Source: a virus
Reading direction: 5' to 3' (one strand)
DNA: 64,000 bases
Virus record (IMG/VR): IMGVR_UViG_3300042479_001216
Location: 43,203-107,202 of that record
Part shown: in pieces, positions 2,617 to 61,229 of the stretch
How the letters are laid out: each line of letters starts with the position of its first letter
Numbering within the stretch: the first letter of the stretch is position 1
Position numbers and translations under genes: made by a program
The notes under the pieces: generated by a model
Databases searched by the model: none
Seen by the model: the letters and a program-made list of their open reading frames with translations, nothing else
What the model was told of the DNA's origin: nothing

Positions 2617-4407
2617 TTATCTTAACTCTTGTAAGTCAAATGTTCTAACACCATCAACCGTAATTCTACCGTAGAAACGGTTGTTAACTAGTTTTTTAGC
2701 ATATCTTGTCATTATACCTTTAATTGGTGTAAAGTTGAATGGATTATACATTGTTGGTGTTAATTGTAATGGTACATATGGTGCATAGATATAACCAGTG
2801 TCTAATAATGATGTTCCTTTGTGTCCCATTAACACTTGGTTTGCTGGGAAGTAAGGGTCACGATATACTTGGTAACGACCTGCTAATGTACCAACTCTTT
2901 CAATACCCATGTTGTATTGGTCTTGGTCAGGAGATGCATTTGATACGTGGAAGTATTCCAAATCATCAAAAATTGCACTAACTTCAGAAGAAACAACAAT
3001 CCAGTTTGCACCACCTCTCAATGTTGATTTGTGGATTTGTGCTGATACTTGGTTAATAGTTGTGATTAATGTTTGATTCCAGTCTTTCTGTGTGTAAGGG
3101 ATAGCGTTTGTACCCAATCTCTTCCAACCATTGTAATCCCAACGTAAATTCCAAGCAGCACCTTTTCTAAGGTCTCTTAAAATTTCTCTATCAATCTCAG
3201 CTGCAATTTGCTCTGATAATAAAGCAGTTAATTCTGCTTCAGCATCAATGTTATGGAATGCAGCAACGTCTTGTGCCATTTCTGGTGACCATTGTGCTCT
3301 TAACTTTCTTTCTGTAACTGAAACAGTAACTGATTGTAAATCAAAAGAAACCTCACCAATTTTATCTTCAAATTCTAAACTCTTGTAAATTCTATAAGTT
3401 GCTGTAAAGTCAGTTGCGGCTGTACCTGAAATTGATGTTGTGAAACCTGTGTAACCATCTAATGAATCTGCACCAACTGTTGCAGGTCTTTGTAAATCAA
3501 CTTCAAGATAAACAACACCAGCAGGTGTTGATAAATCATTGTATGATCCACCTCCTGTTCTACTACTAGGGAAAGTTATTGTATTCTCAGAACCATATTG
3601 AACAAGCCCTTTTGCATATTTCTGTGTAACAACTCTAAACAATAATGGATTGCCAAGTCCAGATGCTGTTGTAACACCAGAGAATGCACCACCTGCTGAT
3701 GTACTTGCATAAACAGTCAAACCAGCCAAGAAACTTTCATTATCCATTGGATGACCATCAGGTCCAATTAATTTACCTTCACCATCAGATCCAAAACCTG
3801 TCAAAGCTAGTATAACTCTTCTATAATTACCTGCTGAATAACCTGAAGTAACTAATGAACCATCACTCCAAACAACTGTAGTACCTGTTGCAGTAACTGC
3901 ACTATATTGTCCTTTTGAATAATCATAAAGACCTTCTGGGTTTAAGCTTGGCTCATTACCTTCATAAAATCTATCATATAAATTTTTTCCACTACCATAA
4001 CCAGTAGTTGGTGTTTGAGTATCTGCTGCACCTGGAGCACCATATGGTGAATAGTGTGCACCAGAATTTGCTTCTTGGATTTGAGGTACAAAGAAGAACA
4101 GTTTACCAATTGGTAAATTCATTGCCTGTACAGATACAATATCATTAGCCAATAATTTAGAGAATACTCTCCTAACGATTGGGAAAACAACTGTTTCAAA
4201 CGCACCAGTATCAGATGTACTAGCCGCTTCGTTAATAAGATATGATGCTTGGTTTTCATATAACTGTGCAACATTCTCTTTTAAATGACCTTTTAAGCCT
4301 TCAAGGAATCCTAATTTATTCCATTTGTTAATTGTATCTTCTTTGATAACTTTTAGGTGTTTCAACCCAATATTACCAACAAGACCTGATTCTAATAATG
4401 CTCCCAT
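2617..4407 (-). CDS. Major capsid protein, gp23-like
   Basis: A 596-residue T4 gp23-type major capsid protein that forms the head shell. Around residues 51-75 it reads ENQASYLINE then AASTSDTG and FPIVRRVFSKL. This parallels the T4 gp23 region ENQ...FLTE/AEIGG...MVRRAIP, where the gp21 protease removes the propeptide. Cleavage is therefore expected after Glu60 (I-N-E). The motif VSVQAMNLPIGKLFFFVPQ also matches gp23. It follows the scaffold gene on the same strand and ends at a hairpin. About 70 residues longer than T4 gp23, probably through an insertion around residues 100-330. Confidence 0.92.
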   Translation of the reverse strand: MGALLESGLVGNIGLKHLKVIKEDTINKWNKLGFLEGLKGHLKENVAQLYENQASYLINEAASTSDTGAFETVVFPIVRRVFSKLLANDIVSVQAMNLPIGKLFFFVPQIQEANSGAHYSPYGAPGAADTQTPTTGYGSGKNLYDRFYEGNEPSLNPEGLYDYSKGQYSAVTATGTTVVWSDGSLVTSGYSAGNYRRVILALTGFGSDGEGKLIGPDGHPMDNESFLAGLTVYASTSAGGAFSGVTTASGLGNPLLFRVVTQKYAKGLVQYGSENTITFPSSRTGGGSYNDLSTPAGVVYLEVDLQRPATVGADSLDGYTGFTTSISGTAATDFTATYRIYKSLEFEDKIGEVSFDLQSVTVSVTERKLRAQWSPEMAQDVAAFHNIDAEAELTALLSEQIAAEIDREILRDLRKGAAWNLRWDYNGWKRLGTNAIPYTQKDWNQTLITTINQVSAQIHKSTLRGGANWIVVSSEVSAIFDDLEYFHVSNASPDQDQYNMGIERVGTLAGRYQVYRDPYFPANQVLMGHKGTSLLDTGYIYAPYVPLQLTPTMYNPFNFTPIKGIMTRYAKKLVNNRFYGRITVDGVRTFDLQELR

Positions 4408-4432: not shown

Positions 4433-6217
4433 TTAACCTAATTTACCCATCAAATCCTTCATCCTCAAAAATTGAGGATTTTCATAAGTTTTTGATTCAA
4501 TTAAGTTAGCTGATGAACCTGTTGACGCAACATTTGAAATCTTACGGTTAACAGACTCATTTAAAGACGAATTTGAATCTTTTGATAATTCATTGTTAAT
4601 AGCAGAATACAAGTTTTTAGATTCTTGTAATGTCTGAATATTATCAAATCGTCTTAAAATGTTTATTTTTTCTTTTTTAGTAGTTGAGTGTTCAGTAAAC
4701 AATCTTGTTGCATATGCTAAATTAGCATTGAAAACTGCAACATCATTTAGTTTCTCTCTAAAAATGTTTAATGATTTTTTATAATCATTATTTGTTTGTT
4801 TTAATTCAGAAACTTGGTTTTCCAGAGCCTCTAAATGTAAATTTCTATTTGGTGTTACGCCTTTTCTAAGACCTCTACCTGCTTTACTTCCCATTCCGTA
4901 AGTTCTTGATGCTTCTTTGGTTTCTTGTTTTTTACCAGTTGTAACTTTTTTCATTTTCCCATCAACATTTGCTGCGGATTTGTCATAGTTAAATTTGGCT
5001 TTACCTGTTCCCATTTTTTTAGGACCCTCTTTCATTTTTTCATTAAAACCGTTTTTAGCCATCTTGTACTTAAATTTGGAAGTCTTTTTAGCCTCACCTA
5101 AATAATTATAATTCTCTCCAACATTACCATCGCCACCATTTAAACAACCTTTTTCTTTCAAGTAATCATACACATCAGAAATAGTTGCTTTTGGATTTTT
5201 GGCTAAATAATCTGAAGTGCTAAAATTAGAACAATCAAAATCTTCATCATCTTCCATTTCATAATCATCATCTTCCATTTCATAATCCTCATCTTCCATC
5301 TCATAACCATCATCTTCTACATCAAACTCTTCTTCGTCTTCCATTTCTATTTCATAAATAACATTGCTATGTTTATTTGCTTTTTCAAAAATTTTATCAA
5401 TTGTTGATTGCGTATCATCTTCTTCTAACTCCATATCATCTTCCATATCATCATCTTCTTCTTTGTTGTCATTAAAATATTTCAAACCAAGTCTTTTGCT
5501 CATAGCATAGTCCACATCAATATCTTCGTTTTCGTCATCAAAAGGTTCAAAATCACCTTCTTCATCGTCGTCATTAAAATATCTCATACCATATTCTTGA
5601 GCATCATCTTCTTCATCACCATAACTTGACTTGATATAATCATCCTCTAAATCATCATCACCATCATCCATTTGATTACTAAGATGACGAACCATACGTG
5701 AATATTGTTTACCTTTCCCCATATCTGAATCAAAATCTTCTATTTGTTCTCCTAGTCTTATTAAATATTCATCACCATCATCAGTTAATGAGATATCATT
5801 ACCATCTTTTGATATAATTATACCATCTTCATCATCCATTGCTTTAAATACTTTTAAAAGTTCACTTTGTGATGCTCCCCTCATATCAATAACATCATCC
5901 TCCATATCCATATCATCTTCCATATCCATATCATCTTCCATATCCATATCATCTTCCATATCCATATCATCTTCCATATCATCTTCCATATCATCCTCCA
6001 TATCCATATCATCTTCCATATCCATATCATCTTCCATATCTAAATCAGTTTCATCATCTTCAATATCTGCTTGCTCATTTAAAGATTCTTTAACTAATTC
6101 TTCGATTTCTTCCTTCATTGTTGAAGCAAGTATTCCTTTTGCGTTTTCTGCAAGCACATCTTCAATTTGTTTCATTTGAATTAGTGCTTCTTCTACTAAA
6201 TTTTTTTCAGATTGCAT
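4433..6217 (-). CDS. Prohead core scaffold protein, gp22-like
   Basis: A 594-residue, very acidic protein directly upstream of the major capsid gene, in the position of T4 gene 22. Residues 55-110 are a low-complexity run of DMEDD units, and further Asp/Glu-rich stretches run to about residue 350. The C-terminal third is predicted coiled coil (LEALENQVSELKQTNND and following). The sequence ends NPQFLRMKDLMGKLG, and C-terminal capsid-binding tails are typical of scaffolds. Several I/L-x-E sites (e.g. VLAE) would allow gp21-type degradation. It is longer than T4 gp22 because of the acidic repeats. Confidence 0.8.
   Translation of the reverse strand: MQSEKNLVEEALIQMKQIEDVLAENAKGILASTMKEEIEELVKESLNEQADIEDDETDLDMEDDMDMEDDMDMEDDMEDDMEDDMDMEDDMDMEDDMDMEDDMDMEDDVIDMRGASQSELLKVFKAMDDEDGIIISKDGNDISLTDDGDEYLIRLGEQIEDFDSDMGKGKQYSRMVRHLSNQMDDGDDDLEDDYIKSSYGDEEDDAQEYGMRYFNDDDEEGDFEPFDDENEDIDVDYAMSKRLGLKYFNDNKEEDDDMEDDMELEEDDTQSTIDKIFEKANKHSNVIYEIEMEDEEEFDVEDDGYEMEDEDYEMEDDDYEMEDDEDFDCSNFSTSDYLAKNPKATISDVYDYLKEKGCLNGGDGNVGENYNYLGEAKKTSKFKYKMAKNGFNEKMKEGPKKMGTGKAKFNYDKSAANVDGKMKKVTTGKKQETKEASRTYGMGSKAGRGLRKGVTPNRNLHLEALENQVSELKQTNNDYKKSLNIFREKLNDVAVFNANLAYATRLFTEHSTTKKEKINILRRFDNIQTLQESKNLYSAINNELSKDSNSSLNESVNRKISNVASTGSSANLIESKTYENPQFLRMKDLMGKLG
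5898..6045 (-). repeat. In-gene tandem repeat encoding DMEDD units
   Basis: Tandem copies of a CATATCCATATCATCTTC-like unit (plus strand) encode repeated Asp-Met-Glu-Asp-Asp in the scaffold. Copy number is likely to vary by slippage. Confidence 0.8.
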
Positions 6218-8371: not shown

Positions 8372-9073
8372 TTATTTCAAATAACTATCAAGTTTATTCA
8401 TTAATTTTAATATATTAGTTGAGGGGTCAATTTTCTTTTCTTCTTCTAGTTTTTCATCATACTTATGCCTATCTTCCTTATTTGAGAATAGGTATGCCCC
8501 GGGTGTTGATGGGGATGAAACCAAATCAAAACAAATCAATTCAAAATCATCTTGAACCTCATTTTTCTCCCCAACTTTTTTAAGTGATCCAACCCCCCTA
8601 GAACTGATTCCTAGGCTCACTCCTTGCCTCATTAGATTTGCGGCAACATCACCCTTGGTTGACACAACACCGCTCTGGTGAAAGCCAGGAGAGGTTAATA
8701 GCAATAATTTACCCATTAGTATATTGCCATCCCACCAAATTTCTGTTATTAAGTGGGCAACTCTATCTAAGTCAATTAAGGATGATTCGGGGTGATTTAA
8801 TTCAGAAGTAGATAAACCCTTTTCAATAATTTGCTTATATCTTTCAGCCTCCCTTTTTAATATTTTTTCAGGATATGTTCTACCATTTCTATTTGGTACA
8901 TCATGCTTTTGCAATACAGCATAAAATTCAAAAGGGTTCTTATAATCTAACTTTTTGTTTTCTTGTATTAAATTAACATTTAATTGGTCTTTGGGATTAA
9001 TCCAACCAGCATCAGCCTCAATTAATATTCCATGACCAATTTCATTTGATTCTAATATTCTTAAACTATTCAT
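8372..9073 (-). CDS. Prohead core protease, T4 gp21-like
   Basis: A 233-residue serine protease that matures the prohead by cleaving scaffold, capsid and internal proteins. Family features visible: NRNGRTYP (residues 61-68), the catalytic His in ELNHPESS (His94) and the catalytic Ser in LGISSRGVGS (Ser157 or 158). T4 gp21 cuts after (I/L)-x-E. The N-terminus of this protein itself has such sites (RILE, ILIE/ADAG), consistent with self-processing. It lies between the portal region and the scaffold, the T4 gene order interrupted by three LRR genes. Confidence 0.9.
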   Translation of the reverse strand: MNSLRILESNEIGHGILIEADAGWINPKDQLNVNLIQENKKLDYKNPFEFYAVLQKHDVPNRNGRTYPEKILKREAERYKQIIEKGLSTSELNHPESSLIDLDRVAHLITEIWWDGNILMGKLLLLTSPGFHQSGVVSTKGDVAANLMRQGVSLGISSRGVGSLKKVGEKNEVQDDFELICFDLVSSPSTPGAYLFSNKEDRHKYDEKLEEEKKIDPSTNILKLMNKLDSYLK

Positions 9074-10324: not shown

Positions 10325-10337
10325 TTTATAAATATTA
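10325..10337 (-). promoter_or_regulatory. Late-type AT-rich promoter motif
   Basis: Minus-strand TAATATTTATAAA overlapping the portal stop codon, 11 bases before the ATG at 10313. Same core as the other virion gene leaders. Confidence 0.4.
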
Positions 10338-12188
10338 TGAACCTAATAACTTTTTTAGTTCGTTTTCTAAATCCCCCAAAGATTTTTGACCTTTTGATAA
10401 TGGAATATAATTTGTTCCATTAAACTTGCTATGTTCAAGCAAAATATTCAAATTTCTATCTCTTGATTCTGGTGCTAAACCTGACTCTGCTGGTGGAGGT
10501 ATCCCCATATCCATACCACCCATATCATCCCCCATTGGAGGTGGTGGTGCACCCATATCCATACCACCCATATCCATACCACCCATATCATCCCCCATTG
10601 GAGGTGGTGGTGCTCCAGCAGTTGTTGTACCACCACTTACTGTACCATATAACTTATCAATATTATCAAATAATCCAGTTTTCTTAATAATGAGAGGGGT
10701 TTGTTTTAATTCTTCACCAACTGCTCTTTCAATTCTCTGTTGTTGTAAATCTAATCTAATCTCCTCATCAGAGAAACCAAAAATATGTTTTTTAGCCCAT
10801 GTTGCTGAAACTGGTGAAATACCTGTACCAGGATCCGCAACTGCATCCCTATAAAGACCAACCTTTTCTTTCCAAACATCAATCTTTAATAAATCTGATT
10901 GTGTTGATGGATTGGTTAATCCCAAAGTAAAATTAGATATTTCATCCTCAAAACCCAATAAAAATAAATGAATAATTGCAATTTTATTCAATTCAGATAT
11001 CATACATTTTTGTATTCTATTTATTGTTCTTGCAAATCTAATATCTTGTAACGCTAAAGTTTTTCCTTCACCAGCCACATCTTCAAAACCCAAGAATGTT
11101 TTTGGTATCCTTAATGCTGTAACCAATTTTTTCTGGATATACTCTATATCTGCAATTTCTCCAAGATTTGTTCCGCCAGGTAAAGTTTCAATGGGACTAC
11201 CTTGCCCGGGGTCTCTTACTGGTATAAAATAATCTTGGTCAACAGCCATTTGATTATATCTCATATCCACATTACCCGTTTTACTATCAACAATTTGTTC
11301 TCGTTTGAATTTATTTGCAACACGCTGTACATATGACTCAACATCATTATCATCCATATTACCAACAAAAACTTTAAATACCCTACGTTCTGGTGCTCTT
11401 GATGTTCTATATATTAACATAGCATCTTCTGCCAATAAAAGTTGTTTCCAAATACGCCTCGCTTTTTCCAATAAAGATGTACCATAAGGTAATTTTCTAT
11501 CATCTCCCAATATTCTAAAGTGAGCAACTTCCCAAGGCTGAAATTCCATCTGTTTATTTTTCCATTTGAATTTAAGGGATTGATTTTCTGATGACATTTC
11601 ACCATAATTTGGTGATTTTTCAGTACTACCTGGTTCTAATCTTTCTATTTCTATATTAGGTAATTGATTGCAACCAACAATGCCTTTTTCTGGGTCTAAC
11701 TTTAAATAGACAAAATTATCACCAAACTTAGCTGTATTCCTAGTCCACATAGGCAATGATGTGTTTATATCCAAAACATTATTAAATAAATCAGTTAGCA
11801 CCGATTTAATTCTTTTTGATTCAGAATATATTTGTAGCATATGACCATCTTCATTTGCTGTTGTTGATTCTTCAGCATATATATCTAATGCTGCCCCTAT
11901 TTCTGGCGTATACTCCATACTTTCAAAATCATAGACTGATGCTAATCTTGTTGGTTCATAATATACTGCTTGGGTATATAAGTGGTTATCAATCTTTGCC
12001 CATTGATTTGATAGATAAAATGATTGCTGGGCTTGTAATTTTTCCCTTTGATATTCATCTTTATTTTGCGTTCTTAATAACTCCTTCTTATCAAATTTAT
12101 ATGTTGGGATATCTTGATTTAAAAGAGAATTTGGTCCAAAAGTTGCAGATAACCTTTGCCAAACTGTTAGATTTTCATTATTACTCAT
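10335..12188 (-). CDS. Portal protein, T4 gp20-like
   Basis: A 617-residue portal vertex protein: the dodecameric ring through which DNA enters and leaves the head. Recognisable gp20 features include YTPEIGAALDIYAEES, KFGDNFVYLKLDPEKGIVG, WEVAHFRILGDDRKLPYGTSLLEKARRIWKQL, LLAEDAMLIYRTSRAPERRVF and PKTFLGFEDVAGEGKTLALQDIRFARTI, a very conserved portal stretch. The C-terminus carries a low-complexity tail with two copies of APPPPMGDDMGGMDMG, unlike T4. It lies immediately downstream of the terminase gene, the usual order. Confidence 0.93.
   Translation of the reverse strand: MSNNENLTVWQRLSATFGPNSLLNQDIPTYKFDKKELLRTQNKDEYQREKLQAQQSFYLSNQWAKIDNHLYTQAVYYEPTRLASVYDFESMEYTPEIGAALDIYAEESTTANEDGHMLQIYSESKRIKSVLTDLFNNVLDINTSLPMWTRNTAKFGDNFVYLKLDPEKGIVGCNQLPNIEIERLEPGSTEKSPNYGEMSSENQSLKFKWKNKQMEFQPWEVAHFRILGDDRKLPYGTSLLEKARRIWKQLLLAEDAMLIYRTSRAPERRVFKVFVGNMDDNDVESYVQRVANKFKREQIVDSKTGNVDMRYNQMAVDQDYFIPVRDPGQGSPIETLPGGTNLGEIADIEYIQKKLVTALRIPKTFLGFEDVAGEGKTLALQDIRFARTINRIQKCMISELNKIAIIHLFLLGFEDEISNFTLGLTNPSTQSDLLKIDVWKEKVGLYRDAVADPGTGISPVSATWAKKHIFGFSDEEIRLDLQQQRIERAVGEELKQTPLIIKKTGLFDNIDKLYGTVSGGTTTAGAPPPPMGDDMGGMDMGGMDMGAPPPPMGDDMGGMDMGIPPPAESGLAPESRDRNLNILLEHSKFNGTNYIPLSKGQKSLGDLENELKKLLGS
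10500..10612 (-). repeat. In-gene repeat encoding PPPPMGDDMGGMDMG
   Basis: Two copies of a unit of about 50-60 bases (with CCCATTGGAGGTGGTGGTGC) in the 3' part of the portal gene encode Pro/Met/Asp/Gly-rich segments. Confidence 0.75.
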
Positions 12189-12200: not shown

Positions 12201-13952
12201 TTATCTTCCACCAAATAACCAATTATATTTTTGGTAATCATTTACATTTGGGGTATTTATTCCATCTTTACCATTGGCATTTGATATCATTGGATTAAAA
12301 TAGAGTGATTGTTCAGTATATGTATTTGTATGTGTACTCCAAGAATTAATCATTGCTTTTGTGTGGTTTGTTACTTTTTCCAAAACTTGAAAAGACTTTT
12401 CTGCAACATAAGTAGCCATTGCTATTGCCATAATACAATCATCATGATGCCCCTTCTGGTGATCAGGTCTCCCATTTATATATATAAAGGTATTCATTTC
12501 ATTGTATAGTCTATTTGAATAAATTTTAAAACCATGTCTTAATGCTTCTTCATAAGATGCAATCATTTGAACTCTTTTGTTATTGAAATTTATTCCAGGA
12601 ATCCTTTCATACATTTTTGGGTCATACTTCCATTTATTATTTGTATCAACATTATCATAATATAAACTTGGATAATTCATTTCTTGTAATTTCCTAGATG
12701 TTGCAACTCCCATTCCACCAGTCAAATCGACAACAACAAATGCCCTATACATTGTACACCATTTATACACAACTTCTGCTAATATATCTGGGGGTATTTT
12801 GCCAACATATTCCAAAACTTGTTCTTGTGTATCAAAATCAATAATCTGAATTGTTGAAAAATCTTCTGAATCGCCCCTTGATACATCAACACCTGCAACA
12901 TACCTATGACCATTTTCTGGCTCTTTAAACATCCATAAACTATTTCCCATCAATTTTGATATGGGGTTTGCCAATTGGTTCTTTAAGATATTTGTTAATA
13001 ATTCTGAATCAAATACATTATCACCTGACCCCAAGAAATTACTTTCAATCTCTTGTGAAACTTTTCTTTTATCATATTTTAATTTCTTCACCATACCCTC
13101 ATACCAAGATGAACATGGTTTATAACCTTCTTCAATATGGTCAATCACTACTTGATGGTCTCTTTCGTATGAATTCTCATGTGATAAATCTAATATATCA
13201 TCTTTGGTATATTCTTCTTTATTTAAAAGATAATGAATCATATCTTTTGTCTTTACCAAAAATAAATCTTTTGTATATCTTGGATCCCTATACCAAACCA
13301 TTTCAGTAATCTTGAACTCATTCATATTACGCAATGCTTGGTCATATATCTCATAATATATCCTATCATAACCATTTGGTGTTGATATTACCACAACCTT
13401 ACCCCCTGTTGATAGCGATGCCATAGAGGCTGCCCAAAAGTCGGGGTCAGCATCAATATAGGCTGCCTCATCAAATATCAATGTGGTGGGTGTATAACCC
13501 CTTAACGCATCTTTTGATGTTGCCACTGCTTTAACCTCACAATCATTGTTTAATTTAAAATGCCTTGCTGAATTTTTTTCAGATGAAAATCCAATACCAA
13601 CCCAATTAGGCCATTGTTCTGTAAAATGTCTAACCTTATTAGCCATCTCAACTGCGGTATCCAATTTGTTGGCAATAATTAACACTTTTTCAGGTTTATT
13701 CTTATTTGCAAATGCTAATTTTTTTGATATCCAAGCAGCTGTAACCGTTGACACCCCAGCCTGCCTATACTTTAATGCAATATTTTCATTATATGAATCA
13801 AAATCCTCAATCAATTTTACTTGGTCTGGAAATAAATCTAATGGTACATATCTTTTAACTGTATTGTCATATGTTTGTAAATATGTCTTTAAACAATATG
13901 GTGTGCTTTTTATACATTTGGCTGATTCAATCAATACTTGATCTCTTGTCAT
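12201..13952 (-). CDS. Terminase large subunit, T4 gp17-like
   Basis: A 583-residue packaging motor with an N-terminal ATPase and a C-terminal nuclease. From this start, the Walker A-like motif KYRQAGVST is at about 61-69 and Walker B LIFDEAAYI at about 159-167. VVVISTPNG follows (coupling motif). The RNase H-like nuclease shows GVDVSRGDS (Asp356), VVDLTGGMG (Asp409) and HHDDCIMA near residue 500. I chose the ATG at 13952 rather than 13979 because the AT-rich late motif (13961-13974) would otherwise lie inside the gene. First gene of the portal/protease block. Confidence 0.93.
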   Translation of the reverse strand: MTRDQVLIESAKCIKSTPYCLKTYLQTYDNTVKRYVPLDLFPDQVKLIEDFDSYNENIALKYRQAGVSTVTAAWISKKLAFANKNKPEKVLIIANKLDTAVEMANKVRHFTEQWPNWVGIGFSSEKNSARHFKLNNDCEVKAVATSKDALRGYTPTTLIFDEAAYIDADPDFWAASMASLSTGGKVVVISTPNGYDRIYYEIYDQALRNMNEFKITEMVWYRDPRYTKDLFLVKTKDMIHYLLNKEEYTKDDILDLSHENSYERDHQVVIDHIEEGYKPCSSWYEGMVKKLKYDKRKVSQEIESNFLGSGDNVFDSELLTNILKNQLANPISKLMGNSLWMFKEPENGHRYVAGVDVSRGDSEDFSTIQIIDFDTQEQVLEYVGKIPPDILAEVVYKWCTMYRAFVVVDLTGGMGVATSRKLQEMNYPSLYYDNVDTNNKWKYDPKMYERIPGINFNNKRVQMIASYEEALRHGFKIYSNRLYNEMNTFIYINGRPDHQKGHHDDCIMAIAMATYVAEKSFQVLEKVTNHTKAMINSWSTHTNTYTEQSLYFNPMISNANGKDGINTPNVNDYQKYNWLFGGR

Positions 13953-13960
13953 ATTTTGTT

Positions 13961-13974
13961 TTTTTATAAATACA
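13961..13974 (-). promoter_or_regulatory. Late-type AT-rich promoter motif
   Basis: Minus-strand GTATTTATAAAAAA just before the preferred terminase ATG. It supports the shorter start. Confidence 0.45.
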
Positions 13975-13987
13975 TACAAAATAAAAA

Positions 13988-39569: not shown

Positions 39570-39571
39570 TA

Positions 39572-40171
39572 TTAGTATTTATTAATACGATTTAAAAATT
39601 GGTTAAAATTAGTTATTGATTCCAAAACTGGCTTGGAAAATGTATTTTGTGTTATTGGTTTTTTTAATATTGGTTTAATTGTCCCAATTTTATCTTCTTT
39701 AAGAATATTTTTAATTGATTCCATCAATGGGCTTTTGGTTTTATTATCAAAGTGAATTTCATACATAACATCTTCATCTAAAATAGGATCAGCATAAGGG
39801 TCAACTCCTTCATGGTAATCATCTTCAATTGAAGTGTCAACATAATCATTTTCCTCCATTTCAATGAAATCCATGTTTGTTTCAGTATCAATATCATCTG
39901 TATCCCAATTTTCATTCATTGCACCACATTCCATACATTCACCTTCTGACATACTGCCACCACATTGCTCACAGGCTCTTTCTCTGCCTTCTTTTACTAG
40001 GTCAGCATTTGTTAATGTGAAGCCTTTTTTATCAGAAATATCATCATATGTTGATAATCTTGTTGGTTTTACTTTTTCTTGAACTGAAAGATATCCATTA
40101 TATAAATCTTTATGTTTATTTAGGATATTTGTTTTTTCTTCATCTGTTATTTTAAAAAAATAAGAATTCAT
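39572..40171 (-). CDS. Zinc-ribbon protein with shared N-terminal motif
   Basis: A 199-residue protein. N-terminus FKITDEEKTNILNKHKDLYN is like the start of the 456-residue neighbour (LDEDKLNILKQYN), so it carries the same class of start helix. A zinc-ribbon-like cluster CEQCGGSMSEGECMECG lies at about residues 63-80. A long acidic stretch follows (DTDDIDTETNMDFIEMEEND). First gene of the operon 40171 to 34919, with a late-type motif upstream (40184-40198). Confidence 0.72.
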   Translation of the reverse strand: MNSYFFKITDEEKTNILNKHKDLYNGYLSVQEKVKPTRLSTYDDISDKKGFTLTNADLVKEGRERACEQCGGSMSEGECMECGAMNENWDTDDIDTETNMDFIEMEENDYVDTSIEDDYHEGVDPYADPILDEDVMYEIHFDNKTKSPLMESIKNILKEDKIGTIKPILKKPITQNTFSKPVLESITNFNQFLNRINKY

Positions 40172-40183
40172 AGTTTTAATTTT

Positions 40184-40198
40184 ATTATAAATATTACC
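40184..40198 (-). promoter_or_regulatory. Late-type AT-rich promoter motif
   Basis: Minus-strand GGTAATATTTATAAT, 12 bases before the ATG at 40171. Probable promoter of the internal-protein operon. Confidence 0.45.
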
Positions 40199-40216
40199 AA
40201 CTATTCAAAATTTTTG

Positions 40217-40224
40217 TATATTTG
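40217..40224 (+). promoter_or_regulatory. Host-type -7 element (TATATTTG)
   Basis: TATATTTG lies 11 bases before the ATG at 40236. No TTTG at -33 is visible. Confidence 0.4.
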
Positions 40225-40235
40225 CAAAAAAAAAC

Positions 40236-40700
40236 ATGAACATATTCTTATTGGATGAAAATCCCCAAATAAATGCTCAATACCACTGCAACAAACATGT
40301 AGTAAAAATGTTATTAGAGACAGCACAAATTTTATGTTCAGCAAACCATATATGTGGTGATAGTGAACCCCCATATAAGTTGGCACATAAAAATCATCCA
40401 TGTTCTATCTGGTGTAGAGCATCTTTAACAAATTATTTATATTTGTGTGAACTAGGATTGGAATTATCAAAAGAATACACCTTTAGATATGGAAAACACC
40501 ACAAATCAACTGATGTGATTCAATGGTGTTTGAATAATTTGCCAAATATCCCAGATATTGGATTTACTCCTCCAGCATTAGCAATGCCAGACCAATATAA
40601 AGTTGATGATTTTGTGCAATCATATAGGAACTACTATATTGGTGAAAAAAAAGGTTTTGCAACCTGGAAAAACAGAGAAATTCCTTATTGGTTTAAGTGA
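40236..40700 (+). CDS. DenV-like pyrimidine dimer glycosylase family protein
   Basis: A 154-residue protein of a conserved phage family: NIFLLDENPQINAQYHCNKHVVKMLLETAQ, HKNHPCSIWCRASLTNYLYL, FRYGKHHKS, and PDQYKVDD..YRNYYIGEKKGFATWKNREIPYWF. I recall this family as related to the T4 endonuclease V (pyrimidine dimer DNA glycosylase). Glycosylase activity is not proven by the sequence. Preceded by a TATATTTG -7 element, so it may be early. It converges with the 105-residue gene downstream. Confidence 0.75.
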   Translation: MNIFLLDENPQINAQYHCNKHVVKMLLETAQILCSANHICGDSEPPYKLAHKNHPCSIWCRASLTNYLYLCELGLELSKEYTFRYGKHHKSTDVIQWCLNNLPNIPDIGFTPPALAMPDQYKVDDFVQSYRNYYIGEKKGFATWKNREIPYWFK

Positions 40701-40702
40701 AT

Positions 40703-41020
40703 TTAATTTAGGTATTTATCTTCCAATTCTTTCTTTGACATTGATGTTTCAAAGTGCATATAAAATGACAAAGTTCTATTTTCAGATTCTACTGCTAATT
40801 CACTAGTTGGCTTACCTTTTGGTAATGAATTTATGAATTTTTTAATTTTGGAATCAATTTTTAATATTTCAGATATTGTAATATCATCTTTGCTTTGGTA
40901 TGTTATAACCTTTTTATTGTCCCACATTGAAAATTGCATACTTTTTGGTAATTTTTGTTCTACAATAACTTTATGAACCAATCTTTTTAAATCTGTTTCT
41001 GTTAATCTTAATGTTCTCAT
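40703..41020 (-). CDS. Small protein with RLTETDLKRLV start (paralog 1)
   Basis: A 105-residue protein. Its first 21 residues form the RLTETDLKRLVHKVIVE helix (I-V-E at residue 21), followed by QKLPKSMQF. The rest (SEILKIDSKIKKFINSLPKG, then FYMHFETSMSKKELEDKY) is clearly paralogous to the gene at 41646-41963. The two paralogs flank a deoxyribosyltransferase with the same start helix. Unknown function, likely virion-targeted. Confidence 0.78.
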   Translation of the reverse strand: MRTLRLTETDLKRLVHKVIVEQKLPKSMQFSMWDNKKVITYQSKDDITISEILKIDSKIKKFINSLPKGKPTSELAVESENRTLSFYMHFETSMSKKELEDKYLN

Positions 41021-41028
41021 AATTTTTT

Positions 41029-41043
41029 TATATAAATATAAAG
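41029..41043 (-). promoter_or_regulatory. Late-type AT-rich promoter motif
   Basis: Minus-strand CTTTATATTTATATA, 8 bases before the ATG at 41020. Confidence 0.4.
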
Positions 41044-41625
41044 TTAATGGTTCTCAACCAAGTGTTTAACACATTCTTCAAAGGTTTTGAATATATCACC
41101 ACCTGATGATCGAATAGAATCAACAATCATCAAATTTCTTGGATATTTAAAATTCTCTACATGTGGAAATTTTTCATCATCTCCATATAAATCAGCAGTA
41201 ATATCTTTTAACTCCTTATCTGAGTGAGTCATATATCCATACATAATTTTATTTTTTGAATATCCATAACCCAATTCAAAAGCAGTACCATCATCAACAT
41301 TTGGACCCCTAAAAGGCTCAAGATTTGCAATAATAACATCACAATTATCCATCATCTCAACATTGCCATGAAATATTCTAGTTGCAGCATCAACTTTAGC
41401 AAAGTCAACTTCATTATCAATAGGCGCATTACCAATCTGGTTATATTTTTTTGATATTTGTTTCATTTGATTCAAATCCTCAATGGCATCTTTCTTAAAA
41501 ACATTAGGTCCTGCTAAATATATACTATACGATTTACCTGATTTTTGTTCTAATATTTTGTTTTCCTTAATGACCCTATTCACAAGCCTAATCAAATCTG
41601 ATTCTGTTAATCTTAATGTTCTCAT
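41044..41625 (-). CDS. Nucleoside 2-deoxyribosyltransferase with start helix
   Basis: A 193-residue enzyme. The catalytic domain begins at about residue 30: YSIYLAGPNVF, then NCDVIIANLEPFRGPNVDDGTAFELGYGYSKNK, which fits the nucleoside 2-deoxyribosyltransferase family (Glu in TAFELG is the expected nucleophile). The family exchanges bases on deoxynucleosides or hydrolyses them. In front lies RLTESDLIRLVNRVIKE (I-K-E at 21, then I-L-E at 26), which is not part of the enzyme family. The enzyme may be packaged in the virion or regulated by this extension. Confidence 0.85.
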   Translation of the reverse strand: MRTLRLTESDLIRLVNRVIKENKILEQKSGKSYSIYLAGPNVFKKDAIEDLNQMKQISKKYNQIGNAPIDNEVDFAKVDAATRIFHGNVEMMDNCDVIIANLEPFRGPNVDDGTAFELGYGYSKNKIMYGYMTHSDKELKDITADLYGDDEKFPHVENFKYPRNLMIVDSIRSSGGDIFKTFEECVKHLVENH

Positions 41626-41645
41626 AATTAGTTTAATTGAATTAA

Positions 41646-41963
41646 TTATTTATACTTTTCTTCCAACTCCTCAACGGATAATGACGTTTCAAACTCTTGG
41701 GTGAAAAATATAGAATCGTAATCAGGCTCTAATACCAATTCACCAACAACTCTTCCATTAGGGAGAAAGTTTATGAATTCTTTCATCACTTCATGTATTT
41801 CTGTTATTTCAGATAATTTAATATTACCGCCATCTACACCTGAAGAAATCACTTTTTTACCTTTGTAAGTTTCAAACTGCGTATCCTTTGGTAATGATTG
41901 TTCTGAAATAACTTTACGAACCAATCTTTTTAATTCTGTTTCTGTTAATCTTAATGTTCTCAT
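41646..41963 (-). CDS. Small protein with RLTETELKRLV start (paralog 2)
   Basis: A 105-residue paralog of the gene at 40703-41020, with start helix RLTETELKRLVRKVISE (I-S-E at 21) and body INFLPNGRVVGELVLEPDYD, then FEFETSLSVEELEEKYK-type end (FTQEFETSLSVEELEEKYK). First gene of a three-gene group with the deoxyribosyltransferase in the middle. A late-type motif lies upstream. Unknown function. Confidence 0.78.
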   Translation of the reverse strand: MRTLRLTETELKRLVRKVISEQSLPKDTQFETYKGKKVISSGVDGGNIKLSEITEIHEVMKEFINFLPNGRVVGELVLEPDYDSIFFTQEFETSLSVEELEEKYK

Positions 41964-41979
41964 AATTTTTTTATTTTTT

Positions 41980-41993
41980 TATATAAATATACC
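41980..41993 (-). promoter_or_regulatory. Late-type AT-rich promoter motif
   Basis: Minus-strand GGTATATTTATATA, 16 bases before the ATG at 41963. Promoter, leader and start-helix codons are similar in the three genes here and in the gene at 48563. Confidence 0.45.
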
Positions 41994-42012
41994 AATATTT
42001 CCTTTTTTTTTG

Positions 42013-42020
42013 TATCTTTG
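42013..42020 (+). promoter_or_regulatory. Host-type -7 element (TATCTTTG)
   Basis: TATCTTTG lies 23 bases before the ATG at 42044; -33 element unclear. Confidence 0.4.
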
Positions 42021-42043
42021 TATCACATTAAAACCAACACAGT

Positions 42044-42238
42044 ATGATACCACAGATTGACCACAAGAATTACCCCAAAAAACTGAAATCTATTGATATT
42101 AATGCCTTACATTATATAATTAAAGATTGTCAAGAGGCAATTAATGCTATGCCAGATAACCCCAAGAATGGTTATTATGCTGATGAAATAAATTACATAA
42201 CAATGGAATTATCCAACAGAAAAAACAAAAGAAAATGA
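42044..42238 (+). CDS. Small hypothetical protein, 64 aa
   Basis: A 64-residue basic protein with a probable helix-turn-helix-like helical content (LHYIIKDCQEAINAMPDNPKNGYYADEINYI). No domain recognised. Four bases overlap with the phosphoesterase gene, so the two are coupled. A host-type -7 element upstream suggests early expression. Confidence 0.7.
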   Translation: MIPQIDHKNYPKKLKSIDINALHYIIKDCQEAINAMPDNPKNGYYADEINYITMELSNRKNKRK

Positions 42239-42888
42239 AGTTAAAAATTAAAAAAGAAAGGCAAATTTGGTTTTTTAGTGATCCCCACTATAACCACAAT
42301 AACATATGTAGGGGAACAACCAATTGGAGAACTAAAGATGGTCAAGTCCCAACAGAGAACACAAGGGATTTTGAATCAATTGAGAAAATGAATGCCGCTA
42401 TTGTTAACAACATAAATGCAGTTGTAAATCAAGACGACATATTAATATGCTTGGGTGACTGGTCATTTGGTGGGTTTGATAGCATAGCAGAATTTCACAA
42501 TCGACTAGTTTGCAAGAATATCCACCTTGTTCTTGGAAATCACGATGACCACATTGAGAAAAACAAAGGTGATATACAGAGATTATTTCTAACTGTTAAC
42601 TCCTATGTTGAACTTGAATTTGATAATAATAAATTTGTCCTTTGCCACTACCCCATAGCATCCTGGAATGGCTTAAATAAGGGGGTTATACACTTACATG
42701 GACACTGCCACCTTCCAACCAATAAAAGGCTGGGAAACGGCAAAAGAATGGATGTGGGGATGGATGGACACCCAGAGTTTAGGCCATACAATCTGAAAGA
42801 GGTTCTTTCAATTTTAAATAAACAACCAATTGCATCTGATATGGGTTTTGACCACCACATAGAAGAATTGGTAAATATTGTAGGTTAA
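42235..42888 (+). CDS. Calcineurin-like metallophosphoesterase
   Basis: A 217-residue metallophosphoesterase. Motifs in order: FFSDPHYNHNN, CLGDWSFGG, LVLGNHDDH, FVLCHYPIASW and HLHGHCH. These supply the two-metal site. The substrate (phosphodiester of nucleotide, RNA or DNA end) is not given by sequence. Close relatives occur in many phages. Coupled to the 64-residue gene before it. Confidence 0.88.
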   Translation: MKLKIKKERQIWFFSDPHYNHNNICRGTTNWRTKDGQVPTENTRDFESIEKMNAAIVNNINAVVNQDDILICLGDWSFGGFDSIAEFHNRLVCKNIHLVLGNHDDHIEKNKGDIQRLFLTVNSYVELEFDNNKFVLCHYPIASWNGLNKGVIHLHGHCHLPTNKRLGNGKRMDVGMDGHPEFRPYNLKEVLSILNKQPIASDMGFDHHIEELVNIVG

Positions 42889-42928
42889 ATATTGAATTAA
42901 TTGTAAATTATATTATACTTAACCAATA

Positions 42929-42939: not shown

Positions 42940-42962
42940 TTATAAAACTTAAAAACAAAACA

Positions 42963-43175: not shown

Positions 43176-43180
43176 AATAA

Positions 43181-43216: not shown

Positions 43217-45142
43217 TTAGGATTCCTCAATGTCAGTATTATTCAAAAATAAGTCTAATTTATAATTAAACATAGTATTATATAATTCATCAATAGGCAT
43301 ATTTCCAGTATATTCATTTTTTGTTTTCTTATCAATCAAGATTATTTTAACAGTTGAATCATCAAAATCAATTTGTGGATTTAAATATATCTTTACAAGT
43401 GACCCATTAAAAATTTGTGGATAATCATTATATTTCCAATTATATTCAGTATTTTCATTAAAATATTTTTCAAGTATTTCTACCAATTTAATTCTAATTT
43501 TTACAATTTCTGCATTTGGTTCATCCACGGATCCAAATTCTTCCATAATGAAATCTTCTAATACATCTGCAATAATTGGGTGCATATCTTCATCTGATGG
43601 ATATATAGTATCATACTCAACATACCATTCATCAGTTACAATATCAGCATCATCAATATAACTCTCAAAAAGTTGGCAGAAATCAGTTATTTGTTTAATT
43701 CTTTGTTTATTAACATATTGGATAAACTCATAAGAATTCACACTCAAAACTTGTGTACGCGAATAATATCCTGATTCAGTTATAAATGCATATTTTTTTA
43801 TAGAATCTAATTCATTTTCTATAGCACCATTATAACCTGATATGGTTGCATCATATGTTTTATCTGAATATTTTTCAAATATTTTATCAAAATATTTTGA
43901 CTTTTTATTATTTATAATAGTTAAAAAATATCTTTTAAAGGCATCTAATGTTATAAAATTATAATTCATATACTTTATATCAGAACTATTTTTTTCAAAA
44001 TAATCACTCACATAGTTTTCTAGTGTTTCAGCAAAATCATATCTATCATTATATATGCTATCAGTTAAATCATTATCTCTTTTTTGCCCTTCTAGGTGTG
44101 AAATACGTTCTTTTAAAGAACCAATTGAAGAATAATTTCCAACCTTCCCTGAACATGGAGTTCTAAGTTCAAAATCAATGTTTGACCCATCATATGTGAT
44201 ATCATCAAGATTTCTATCACTAATAAGTGGTATTATTCCTTCCTCTTCATCATCCTCTGTTAATTGGTCATAAGTGTCATTTTTGGCAAACGCCAAAGCA
44301 ATTGGATTGCTTATACCAGATTCAACCAATCTTTCAATTCTAACCTCATTTAATTTACTTGCAAACTTATCTGATAGAGCATTTATTCTATCAAATTGTT
44401 CTTCCTCAGTAAAAATACCTTCTTTATCTAATAATAATGGAAAATAAAACTCTCTTAGTTCATCATGTTTAATAAAAAATCCTTTAACATTTATCATACC
44501 ATCTCTAACATCTCTAAATTCATCCTTTTTAAATTGAAATTGGTATTTGTGTTTCTCATCACTCTTATCAATCATAATATATATTGGTGCATAATTGTAT
44601 GTTGTAAATAAGTTGCTTCTACTCTTGTATGCTGGGTCTAAACTATATTTACCCCAAGTTGTACACCAAGATGAACCAACGCCAAGCCAGGCTGCTGCCT
44701 TCTCTGTTAAAGGTCTAAAAACAACCCATTTTTCTCCATTATGCAGAAGTTTATATGAATCTTTTGGTAATTCTTTTAAAATTTCTTTTATTGGTGTTTC
44801 AATAGATACAATATAATTTTTTACAATATCATATAAATCTGATATTTGCTTGATATTCTTAATATCAATACTCAAATTTTTATTATAAACAATAGCCAAG
44901 TATCTGGTGGCTTCAACCAAGTTTTCAAGATTTGGCATATTACCAATCTTATAAATGTTCAGTAATATTTTGGCATATTTACCGACTTTTACTATTTTAT
45001 CATTTTTAACAACCGTTTTGGGGTCTGCCTTTATAATTCTATTAAATATTTGCAAAGGTATATCACTATAATACTGGGTATAAATTTCTTCCAAAGACTT
45101 TGCTTCAGAAATTATGGATTTTAAAGAGTTTAATAGTTTCAT
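43217..45142 (-). CDS. Large protein with WCT/QF-x-F domain and propeptide-like start
   Basis: A 641-residue protein. It starts MKLLNSLKSIISE then AKSLEE (I-S-E at 13), matching the lengths in the genes at 45149 and 60630. A domain at about 160-235 reads GSSWCTTWGKYS...LFTTYNYAPIYIMID...YQFQFKKDEFRDVRD; a similar pattern (FCTFGHGHYSRYL, YQFHYESNQFMDRRD) occurs in the gene at 48563. The C-terminal half is acidic. I know no function for this domain; the layout suggests a virion-packaged protein acting after entry. Confidence 0.75.
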   Translation of the reverse strand: MKLLNSLKSIISEAKSLEEIYTQYYSDIPLQIFNRIIKADPKTVVKNDKIVKVGKYAKILLNIYKIGNMPNLENLVEATRYLAIVYNKNLSIDIKNIKQISDLYDIVKNYIVSIETPIKEILKELPKDSYKLLHNGEKWVVFRPLTEKAAAWLGVGSSWCTTWGKYSLDPAYKSRSNLFTTYNYAPIYIMIDKSDEKHKYQFQFKKDEFRDVRDGMINVKGFFIKHDELREFYFPLLLDKEGIFTEEEQFDRINALSDKFASKLNEVRIERLVESGISNPIALAFAKNDTYDQLTEDDEEEGIIPLISDRNLDDITYDGSNIDFELRTPCSGKVGNYSSIGSLKERISHLEGQKRDNDLTDSIYNDRYDFAETLENYVSDYFEKNSSDIKYMNYNFITLDAFKRYFLTIINNKKSKYFDKIFEKYSDKTYDATISGYNGAIENELDSIKKYAFITESGYYSRTQVLSVNSYEFIQYVNKQRIKQITDFCQLFESYIDDADIVTDEWYVEYDTIYPSDEDMHPIIADVLEDFIMEEFGSVDEPNAEIVKIRIKLVEILEKYFNENTEYNWKYNDYPQIFNGSLVKIYLNPQIDFDDSTVKIILIDKKTKNEYTGNMPIDELYNTMFNYKLDLFLNNTDIEES

Positions 45143-45148: not shown

Positions 45149-46672
45149 TTATTTTTTAATTGGTATATCATTTTCTGAACATAGTTCATAAAAATTTTCA
45201 ACAAAATCCTCATCATTTGGATAGGGGTCATTTATTCTATTAGTATTAACTCTAGGCTTATCTATTTGATTCTCAGTAGCTGCATCAAAAAATAAATCTT
45301 CCAACTTAGTATATGTTGCCAAATCAGGATAATTTTTAAGTTCATATAAATTTAATATATCAATACGAATTTTAACATATTCATCATTAAAGTCCAATAC
45401 ATCACCATATTCTTCAAATAAACCTCTATAATATTGATAATATGCATCATATACTGCTGTCTCGTTTGCTCTATCTAATGATTGTCTTAATACTGATTGT
45501 AAATCATGATCATCTATTTCTTTTATTTTATTACTTAATTCCATATCATAAAATTCATCTTGATTATTTTCAGAATCATCTGTACTCCATTTTTTTGAAC
45601 GATAGATGTTATCAACATAATCTTCTATTTTTTGTTCTAAATTGTTATCTGTATAATGCACAAAATCTTCCCAAGAATAACCAGAGTCATTATATAAATC
45701 ACCACTAAACACTTTTTCTAAAAACTTCTCCTCTGAATTACCAAAATTGTCCAAGAAATATTTATAGTGATGATTTTTAATGGTAATATCAAAAATAGTC
45801 TTTGGTTTTTCTTTAATTAAACCTTTTTTGTATGCCTCAACTCTTAAAAATATATCTAATAATTCTGGTTTTTCTTCAATTATCACTTTTAGTGATTCAT
45901 CACCTAAATCTGTTATTTTAAAATCACTTGCAGAATCATATTCAGAGCCAAATCCAATAATATCAATTTTATCAGTTATTAACAATTCAACAATATATTT
46001 ATGATATTTTTCTGCTGGTTTTGAGTTTTTTTGACCTTTTAATTGTAAAATTTTATCACCACTACCCCCCCATTGAATTGCAGCAGTTAAATGACTTTTA
46101 CTTAATGTAAATTTATCATTTATTCTTTTTGTTTCTCTTAATGAATATAAAGTATCCCCCCTAGTTGAAGCACAATGACCCATTCTTTTTTGTTCCTCTG
46201 TACACCTTGATGTGGCTAAATCTACCCAATAAAATCCCATACCATCACTATCTCTAAAATCTAATATAATGTCATTTTCTTCATTATAATTATATTCACC
46301 ATCACCCACACCTAATTCATTATGCCATTTTACTGATTCATTAAATAATGTTTCAAAATTATCATTTTTATGTTCACCTAAATTACCATTTAATCCAATT
46401 TTAATCCAGTCCATAATGGAGGCCAACTTTGTATAATATCTTCGGTAAGTTTTGTTTAATGATTCAGCTGATGTAAATACATCATTCATATCTAATGTAT
46501 CCAAGGTTTCTTTTTCGCTTTTAATGATTTTATTAACCATTATGACAGCCAATTTGCCACATCTTTCAACAAAGAAATCAGCAGCTTCATCACTTAATTT
46601 TAACTTATTAACCAAAACATCCTTTGCAGATGCCTCTAAGATTAAACTTTTTGCAACATTAATTAATTTCAT
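45149..46672 (-). CDS. Large protein, paralog of 58958 gene, propeptide-like start
   Basis: A 507-residue protein. It starts MKLINVAKSLILE then ASAKDV (I-L-E at 13). The core IMDWIKIGLNGNLGEH, LDFRDSDGMGFYWVDLATSRCTEEQKRMGHC, GDTLYSLRE, and KYHKYIVELL is shared with the gene at 58958-60625, so the two are paralogs. The conserved Cys-Thr-Glu-Glu...Met-Gly-His-Cys block could be a metal or catalytic site. The remainder is acidic and variable. Seven bases lie between it and the 641-residue gene. Confidence 0.75.
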   Translation of the reverse strand: MKLINVAKSLILEASAKDVLVNKLKLSDEAADFFVERCGKLAVIMVNKIIKSEKETLDTLDMNDVFTSAESLNKTYRRYYTKLASIMDWIKIGLNGNLGEHKNDNFETLFNESVKWHNELGVGDGEYNYNEENDIILDFRDSDGMGFYWVDLATSRCTEEQKRMGHCASTRGDTLYSLRETKRINDKFTLSKSHLTAAIQWGGSGDKILQLKGQKNSKPAEKYHKYIVELLITDKIDIIGFGSEYDSASDFKITDLGDESLKVIIEEKPELLDIFLRVEAYKKGLIKEKPKTIFDITIKNHHYKYFLDNFGNSEEKFLEKVFSGDLYNDSGYSWEDFVHYTDNNLEQKIEDYVDNIYRSKKWSTDDSENNQDEFYDMELSNKIKEIDDHDLQSVLRQSLDRANETAVYDAYYQYYRGLFEEYGDVLDFNDEYVKIRIDILNLYELKNYPDLATYTKLEDLFFDAATENQIDKPRVNTNRINDPYPNDEDFVENFYELCSENDIPIKK

Positions 46673-48562: not shown

Positions 48563-49363
48563 TTAAAATATTTGTTGGTCTCTTCTGTCCATAAATTGAT
48601 TTGACTCATAATGGAATTGATAAGGAGCCATAGGATCACCCAAATTAAATATGAAGTAATATGCTGACCCGGGGTAGTCTTTTAAATATCTGCTATAATG
48701 CCCGTGTCCAAAAGTACAGAATTTAATTTCAGCACCTTTTTGAGCTTTAAATAAAATATCACAATATACCTTATGTGTTTCTTTTGAAATGTCAGATATT
48801 TTAAATATTTGATAACCATCAACAAGACCTAGTAACTTAATTCCAGCAGCATCTAATTTCATTAAATCTGGTTTTGAAACTAAATTCCCAGTATTAACAA
48901 GGTTATCATCCATACCCAAATCAAGACTTTTCTGTTTGAAAGCATCTACTGCTTTTTCTAAATCTCTAATATCACTTTGTGTTTTAATACTATCAAGGTT
49001 AAATATATATATTGGCTCACCATTTTCATCTTCTTCTCCTGTTTCAAATTGAGGAATATGCAAATATTGTTGAGAAATTTTGTTTGATTTTTTTATTTGC
49101 TCAAAAGTTTTAAATAAACTCTCATACCTAAGAGAATCCTCAGCTTTGATTATTTTTCTTACAATCCTAGAACATAACCACTTCATATAAGCATCTTTAC
49201 CCATAGTTGCCTGAACAATCTCATCCCAATATTCTTCATCAATTTTACCTGAATCAACAAATATTTGTTTATATTTAGCAATAGTTGCTTCATTTGCTTC
49301 ATTAATAATTCTTCTAATGATTAATTGTAAATCATTCTCTGTTAATCTTATTGTTTTTGCCAT
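48563..49363 (-). CDS. Protein with RLTENDLQLII start and QF-x-F domain
   Basis: A 266-residue protein. It starts TIRLTENDLQLIIRRIINE then ANEAT (I-N-E at 22). The C-terminal segment IKFCTFGHGHYSRYL...YYFIFNLGDPMAPYQFHYESNQFMDRRDQQIF corresponds to the WCT domain of the 641-residue protein at 43217, here at the very end. The middle is helical. Upstream late-type motif at 49379-49390. Probable virion-targeted protein of unknown activity. Confidence 0.75.
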   Translation of the reverse strand: MAKTIRLTENDLQLIIRRIINEANEATIAKYKQIFVDSGKIDEEYWDEIVQATMGKDAYMKWLCSRIVRKIIKAEDSLRYESLFKTFEQIKKSNKISQQYLHIPQFETGEEDENGEPIYIFNLDSIKTQSDIRDLEKAVDAFKQKSLDLGMDDNLVNTGNLVSKPDLMKLDAAGIKLLGLVDGYQIFKISDISKETHKVYCDILFKAQKGAEIKFCTFGHGHYSRYLKDYPGSAYYFIFNLGDPMAPYQFHYESNQFMDRRDQQIF

Positions 49364-60629: not shown

Positions 60630-61229
60630 ATGAAACTAATAGAAATTTTTAAAACACTAATTAATGAGGAAACTGATGGTATAACTATCTTTTTAAATAA
60701 GATACAAGCAGAGTATGACATATCTGATTCTTTATACGTGGAAATGTTAGATTTTATTGAAGAATCTGGATGTAAGAAAATTGAGTTTGCAAAATTTAAT
60801 TATCCAGCACTAGGATTGGCATTACATAATGGCGTTTTAATAAACTCAAATATGATTGGAGATAATTTAAGTTTTTTAATCTTTGTTATTTTCCATGAGG
60901 TTGCACATCAATTCCAGTTTAAGAAATATGGTGATAAAATTATGTATGGCGTTTATTCTGGTGATGTTAGTATTGATGAGGCTGCCAAGTTTATGAAACA
61001 TACAGAAGAGGTTGCTGATGAATTTGCAATGAGAAAAATAAGAGAATTACAGAAAAAAGATTTAATTGATAAGAATTATAGGGCAAATTCACCATATAGA
61101 AATATATCAGTTCAATCAATAAAAAGTATGATAATTAGATTTAGGGATGATCTTAAAAGCAAAAACATAACATCCCCAAATGATATTAGCAAATACTTTT
61201 ATAATATGGTAAAAAGTAAAATGCAATAA
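60630..61229 (+). CDS. HExxH zinc metalloprotease-like protein with propeptide-like start
   Basis: A 199-residue protein. It starts MKLIEIFKTLINE then ETDG (I-N-E at 13), the same length of start segment as the proteins at 43217 and 45149. The zincin motif is FHEVAHQFQF (His89, Glu90, His93) with a likely third ligand in TEEVADEFA (Glu126 or 127). It would be an M-class peptidase of unknown substrate. If the start segment is a capsid-targeting peptide, this protease would be injected with the DNA. Confidence 0.8.
   Translation: MKLIEIFKTLINEETDGITIFLNKIQAEYDISDSLYVEMLDFIEESGCKKIEFAKFNYPALGLALHNGVLINSNMIGDNLSFLIFVIFHEVAHQFQFKKYGDKIMYGVYSGDVSIDEAAKFMKHTEEVADEFAMRKIRELQKKDLIDKNYRANSPYRNISVQSIKSMIIRFRDDLKSKNITSPNDISKYFYNMVKSKMQ

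Follow-up and report, generated by a model that had tools for sequence, protein, structure and literature searches.

The nucleoside 2-deoxyribosyltransferase described here, from a large uncultured phage, carries an N-terminal helix that we read, with a probability of roughly 0.7, as a capsid-targeting propeptide that would be cut by the gp21-type prohead protease, leaving the free enzyme in the head for injection. The gene lies in a window (the whole stretch of DNA that was analysed) formed by the final 64 kb of an IMG/VR record of 107,202 bases; its relevant features are listed in Table 1. An earlier note on this DNA had proposed such a capsid-targeting helix. Its proposal is strongly but indirectly supported by a T4-type gp21/gp22/gp23 head, the [IL]xE site of the capsid protein, enrichment of that site in the scaffold and the exchange of the tag between proteins, while the position of the putative cut had to be refined.

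Table 1. Features of the window discussed in the text. A slash marks the predicted cut; coordinates are window positions.
Feature	Coordinates	Strand	Remarks
T4 gp23-type major capsid protein, propeptide end YLINE/A at residue 60	2617..4407	-	phrog_138 E=2.7e-66
Scaffold protein, gp22 position, between protease and capsid genes	4433..6217	-	
T4 gp21-type prohead protease	8372..9073	-	phrog_207 E=8.8e-43
T4 gp20-type portal protein	10335..12188	-	phrog_213 E=5.3e-67
Terminase large subunit	12201..13979	-	phrog_2 E=2.5e-36
Tagged 105-aa protein, MRTLRLTETDLKRLVHKVIVE/Q, paralogue of the 41646 protein	40703..41020	-	
Tagged nucleoside 2-deoxyribosyltransferase gene, 193 aa	41044..41625	-	read 41625→41044; PF05014 E=4.6e-27; phrog_7995/1817; Foldseek 2a0k, 6qai
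Enzyme domain, residues 33-193, with Y36, D96 and nucleophile E117 (GTAFELG)	41047..41529	-	PDB and viral alignments
N-terminal tag, residues 1-26, MRTLRLTESDLIRLVNRVIKENKILE/Q	41548..41625	-	alignment of four relatives; AlphaFold2 helix
Tagged 105-aa protein, MRTLRLTETELKRLVRKVISE/Q	41646..41963	-	
Second tag type, MKLLNSLKSIISE/A	43217..45142	-	homologues MRLLKSLEQLIIE/S and MRLLKALTQLIIE/S keep the site only
Second tag type, MKLINVAKSLILE/A	45149..46672	-	
Tagged 266-aa protein, MAKTIRLTENDLQLIIRRIINE/A	48563..49363	-	homologue L132; L006 and L007 homologues keep the tag
Second tag type, MKLIEIFKTLINE/E	60630..61229	+	

The assignment of the protein as a nucleoside deoxyribosyltransferase with a domain starting near residue 30 was borne out. 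The Pfam match spans residues 35-166 (94.9 bits, against a cut-off of 28.8), and the AlphaFold2 model (mean pLDDT 81, pTM 0.73) shows residues 8-29 as a single helix, separate from the enzyme fold, which begins at residue 34. The closest solved enzymes by sequence are those of Trypanosoma brucei (2a0k, E=1.4e-18) and Leishmania mexicana (6qai, E=1.7e-17), which are also the best Foldseek matches. The catalytic Tyr, Asp and Glu are common to the phage and trypanosomatid enzymes, Y36, D96 and E117 aligning with 2a0k/6qai and with other viral enzymes; the Glu of GTAFELG was assigned as nucleophile on the basis of E88 of CtNDT (PMC10913048). Judged from these alignments the active site is intact, and the predicted activity is base exchange between 2'-deoxynucleosides, although the protein may also act as a hydrolase, as do its DNPH1/MilB relatives.

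The full helix-forming extension ahead of the domain is MRTLRLTESDLIRLVNRVIKENKILEQKSGKS. In agreement with the claim that it is foreign to the enzyme family, 2a0k and 6qai begin at the first enzyme strand, without an N-terminal tag, and the homologues of Pseudomonas phages Astolliot and Milchi and of Acetobacter phage phiAX1 start at IYLAGP or the corresponding residues. Of seven distant IMG/VR homologues, six likewise have no extension and one has an unrelated extension. The untagged phage enzymes (Astolliot, Milchi, phiAX1 and IMG/VR L299, L301-L305) are 29-51% identical to the tagged enzyme and belong to the same family, but are presumably made only after infection. On the other hand, the extension is kept in four viral contigs that encode close relatives of the enzyme (91-100% identical), so that conservation among homologues, which the earlier note had suggested checking, holds for the close relatives and not for the distant ones. 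An extension typical of the enzyme family is thus ruled out by the solved enzymes and the distant viral homologues. A wrongly placed start codon is ruled out by the in-frame tag in four relatives and its match to the family tag, and a signal peptide or membrane anchor by the sequence itself, which is amphipathic and charged and has no hydrophobic core.

The same tag is found on a large number of other proteins. We searched IMG/VR with two DNA patterns, both codon-restricted, for M...[RK]LTExDL close to the N-terminus, without requiring the [IL]xE end. The tag was found on at least 237 distinct proteins besides the four in the window, at least 241 in total, an occurrence that is far beyond chance. 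The consensus reads M[KR]K[IV][IV][RK]LTESDLTRIV[KR]RV[IL]xE/Q; among the matches listed, 235 of 237 tags end in [ILVMF]xE, 207 of them in the identical register. The column entropy, again among the matches listed, is 0.49 bits at the Glu, 2.9 bits at the next residue, where Gln is commonest, and about 4 bits (random) by the fifth. The bodies behind the tag fall into at least 171 unrelated clusters, with at least 140 singletons, and the large phages that use it have 6-14 tagged ORFs each. Recognisable bodies include NUDIX hydrolase, GNAT acetyltransferase, phage lysozyme, alpha/beta hydrolase, LysM and peptidoglycan-binding domains. Among the tagged bodies sampled, nearly a tenth are of the peptidoglycan-binding, LysM or lysozyme kind; as head cargo they would be unexpected, yet not impossible. 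One body family, ENYMFFxNLxQIKRQ..., has the RLTESDL tag in at least 10 contigs, while its member in this genome, encoded directly ahead of the window at record 41534-41956, has a different helix, MIHPVIKKIVKNAINE/Q. Different helices with the same [IL]xE end on one body indicate that a helix plus [IL]xE is what matters.

Several observations touch on this distribution. A NUDIX hydrolase of another phage (L025:7207-7971; PF00293, 7e-20) is a second nucleotide-metabolism enzyme with the tag. A small basic peptide, KKKxKKKDTTLCSRGxxAAKSKxxVYPSAYANGYAVQVCKG, occurs in L040, L087, L100 and L242. It either follows the tag immediately or closes the ENYMFF protein, where an internal [IV]xE precedes it, as if the same protease set it free. 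The isolate Flavobacterium phage immuto (L144-L146) has repeated N-terminal helices of its own: MENFDLKKFLVENKLTxNSxLLxE (four copies), MKKQILSEQFKRMQxLAGIITE (two), MKKSQLRQIIKE/A and others. A direct search for the tag in eight phage records, including those of T4, immuto and RM378, found none, and a tblastn search of phage records with the 23-residue tag gave no match, the query being so short that the test was nearly powerless.

Within the window, the enzyme gene and both flanking 105-aa genes share identical first 8 residues and 24 bases, followed by a similar helix, and the identity of 24 bases in three adjacent genes suggests that recombination has spread the module recently. The earlier note had described the helix as the same in the two neighbours and in the 48563 protein; this fits the neighbours, but the 48563 protein has a diverged copy that is only similar. 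A second tag type, with the consensus MKL[LI]NxxKSLI.E/, is present on the 43217, 45149 and 60630 proteins, and relatives keep its [IL]xE end only. N-terminal helices of other types than RLTESDL that end in [IL]xE, MKL[LI]NxxKSLI.E/ and M[KR][IV]LI[ST]ExQ[LV]xxI[LV].E, lie at window positions 43217-46672, 58958-61229 and 52360-53427; the large bodies behind them gave no significant Pfam match, and a Pfam search of the other tagged proteins of the window found no function. Among 112 N-termini of the genome outside its main repeat family, 33 have a polar-hydrophobic helix stretch plus [ILVM]xE, whereas for internal segments the share is 10.9% (binomial p=7e-8, for a stricter helix rule of the analyst's own choice); the simple count of [ILVM]xE is 53/112 versus 31% internally.

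The main repeat family comprises about 24 paralogues, MEKETLKKIFDFLEENE..., whose leucine-rich repeats read SLPEGLKVxGDLDL and which fill much of the genome (window 273-839, 6616-8370, 23616-27068, 51873-52352 and 56356-57434; record 36569-43475). The RLTESDL tag is found on the same repeat body in other phages (L028, L046, L077), and these paralogues, with their own helix ending in FLE/FIE, may also be head cargo. We also note a 78-aa protein with tandem SKWESGATRGKANPIDSK repeats at window 39029-39265, kept in relatives L005 and L006, and an ORF with the subtilisin-like motifs GHGHHVAGI and GTSMATPHGT at window 50009-51058.

The head genes point to a T4-type particle, with a gp21-type protease and a gp23-type capsid protein in the same genome as four RLTExDL proteins, a short N-terminal extension common to unrelated bodies. 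Near isolates by capsid protein include Flavobacterium phage immuto (42%), Microcystis phage Mel-JY01 (44%) and Rhodothermus phage RM378 (35%), and judging by such isolates a Bacteroidota host is plausible. The capsid propeptide ends in an invariant [ILV]xE in 22 of 22 proteins (this phage, 20 relatives among the tag phages and immuto), with the variants LINE/A (one LINE/S), LLNE/A, LIYE/A, LLYE/A and IVSE/A; the T4 counterparts are FLTE/A at residue 65 of gp23 and FIAE/A in IPII and IPIII. In 21 homologues of the scaffold family, whose members have to be cut to pieces, [IL]xE[AS] was observed 82 times versus 21.1 expected from shuffling (3.9-fold enriched), while the ratio is 0.35-fold in the mature capsid protein and 0.77-fold in the tagged cargo bodies; these counts come from homologous sequences, so that their z values overstate independence. 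The tag thus appears to end in a site for the phage's own prohead protease, although the residue after the predicted cut is mostly Gln in tags versus Ala in the capsid site (Ser in one case).

The tag also tends to occur together with the protease. Among the matches listed from the same scan, 23 of the 50 records bearing the tag encode a gp21-type protease, against 2 of the 37 off-target ones (Fisher p=2.6e-5), and the gp23 family is likewise found on 23/50 tag records. Restricting the listed matches to contigs of at least 40 kb gives 18/31 with the tag versus 2/12 off-target (p=0.02), and all six listed tag contigs above 240 kb have the protease. The capsid proteins of the tag phages are closely related, and this co-occurrence may therefore reflect ancestry and not function. 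Within the enzyme family, gp21 accompanies three of three tagged contigs, including that of the window phage, and none of five untagged contigs of at least 40 kb; Astolliot and Milchi, Pseudomonas phages that bear gp21 and have untagged enzyme homologues, are exceptions to this pairing.

The cut in this enzyme is probably not where the tag family would place it. The site in canonical register, E21, reads IKE here and IKK, TNE or NKA in close relatives, and is thus not conserved. R5-D10, R13-V15, V18, I24, E26 and Q27 are invariant in the four aligned relatives, while P2 and neighbouring residues vary, so that an I-x-E26/Q27 site lies five residues downstream of the canonical register. Because the E21 site is not conserved, I-x-E26/Q27 is kept and Gln is the commonest P1' residue of the tag family, E26/Q27 is the likeliest cut of the tagged enzyme as predicted from the alignment, and the favoured mature N-terminus would be QKSGKSYSIYLAGP... 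The helix of 21 residues that had been described earlier is a real tag, but its canonical end at E21 is not conserved and a cut at E26/Q27 is likelier.

The reading as a capsid-targeting propeptide rests on analogy with T4, in which internal proteins enter the core by way of capsid-targeting sequences (CTS) that gp21 cleaves off, the products being injected (PMC5694885, PMC3012670, PMC9391042). These propeptides of 10-20 residues are able to package foreign proteins (PMC5694885, PMC3012670), and those of IPI, IPII, IPIII and Alt are cut by gp21 (Mullaney and Black 1996, as cited in PMC5694885 and PMC9958956). The two systems have in common a short N-terminal propeptide on unrelated proteins of one phage, with a hydrophobic-x-Glu end (FIAE/A in T4), a gp21-type protease and a gp23-type capsid protein with an equivalent cut, at residue 60 here and 65 in T4. 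Unlike the T4 CTS, the present tag is longer (21-26 residues), has another sequence (RLTESDLxRIVKRVIxE/Q) with mostly Gln at P1', and occurs on far more kinds of protein, whose packaging we infer from sequence. It shows no similarity to the T4 CTS MKTYQEFIAEA beyond the x-x-Glu end, and the T4 genome has no match; we therefore describe it as CTS-like in its working and not as a homologue. The ejection proteins of SPN3US and phiKZ likewise have N-terminal propeptides on cargo inside the head, cut after x-x-Glu by gp21-related proteases (gp245/gp175), but theirs are mostly longer than 100 residues with an AXE/SXE motif, compared to about 22 residues and a T4-type protease and capsid here (PMC5694885).

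By this analogy, the tag would attach the protein to the scaffold core as the prohead assembles, and the activated gp21-type protease would cut after [IL]xE, most likely at the I-L-E26/Q27 site seen in the sequence of this enzyme. The tag peptide would then leave, and the free deoxyribosyltransferase would stay in the head with the DNA, to be injected at infection and to exchange bases between 2'-deoxynucleosides before phage gene expression. On entry, the enzyme may salvage deoxynucleosides of the host, supply bases or counter a defence that depletes nucleotides. No virion proteome of a tag-bearing phage was found.

A different account, which we judge rather unlikely, is that the tag of this gene is a decaying by-product of recombination with its tagged neighbours and that the enzyme is an ordinary intracellular auxiliary metabolic enzyme, which would leave room for the tag to act as a CTS on other proteins. 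It would explain the 24 bases identical to both neighbours, the canonical site lost in three of four relatives and the fact that untagged phage homologues are common. The tag of the enzyme also evolves faster than its body, with 5-9 of 23 residues changed between relatives versus 6-10 of 166 in the rest, which makes decay a live rival. However, R5-D10, R13-V15, V18 and I-x-E/Q are invariant in the same four relatives, and the extension stays open and in frame.

Two further readings concern the tag family as a whole. The helix could bind the scaffold or another virion part and so place the protein on or in the particle (for instance a baseplate, tail or envelope-acting component) without being a cleaved CTS. 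Tagged PG_binding, LysM and lysozyme proteins would suit a part that meets the cell wall, and the Gln at P1', against Ala in the capsid site, fits as well; but a near-invariant [IL]xE followed by random sequence is the pattern of a cleavage site, a docking helix alone needs no Glu with Ile or Leu at P3, and the capsid propeptide has the same motif, as has the scaffold in excess, all of which makes this reading unlikely. That the helix serves some general interaction or regulation without any role in the virion, for instance as a docking element for a phage or host factor, is very unlikely: the at least 171 unrelated body types and the lack of any known function for the tag would agree with it, but it leaves unexplained the match to a gp21-type site, the stop in conservation at the Glu and the interchangeable helices with only the [IL]xE end in common.

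The tag was also seldom matched in cellular genomes. A first pattern scan of genome contigs gave no match, and a longer tag pattern found three stretches in 84,980 bacterial and archaeal genomes, although this pattern is codon-restricted and absence elsewhere is weak evidence. Two of the stretches (L149/L150) lie on QCKH01000009.1, a 64-kb contig of the Prochlorococcus AG-409-L21 single-cell genome with tagged genes and gp21 and gp23 homologues, which is a phage contig and not host chromosome. The third, a tagged 73-aa ORF (L148:2378-2599), comes from a bacterial contig of a Prevotellaceae MAG. This contig, which has an integrase-like ORF and lacks gp21, may hold the remnant of a prophage. With these numbers and contexts we rejected the tag as a cellular module. 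The earlier note had counted occurrence of the extension in cells outside a phage context against its proposal, and in this respect two stretches agree with a phage origin while the third stands on a bacterial contig.

To our knowledge, T4 and a few giant phages are the main cases in which the proteins injected at the start of infection have been identified. A literature search, mostly of open-access papers, found neither the tag sequence in print nor a known function for it, and no report of a packaged deoxyribosyltransferase. We tentatively suggest, at somewhat less than even odds, that the RLTESDLxRIVKRVI[x]E/ helix, along with the helices that can take its place (MKLxNxxKSLIxE/, MKxLITExQLxxILNE/ and others), forms a virion-loading code of a large group of uncultured phages with T4-type heads, in which the deoxyribosyltransferase is one of hundreds of first-minute effectors. 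If so, the tag alone would mark injected effectors, and a tag readable from sequence would make many proteins without a Pfam match predicted head cargo, a question that virion proteomics could test. The enzyme would then be a nucleotide-metabolism activity delivered with the genome instead of expressed after entry, acting before transcription on host deoxynucleosides or on nucleotide-based defences.
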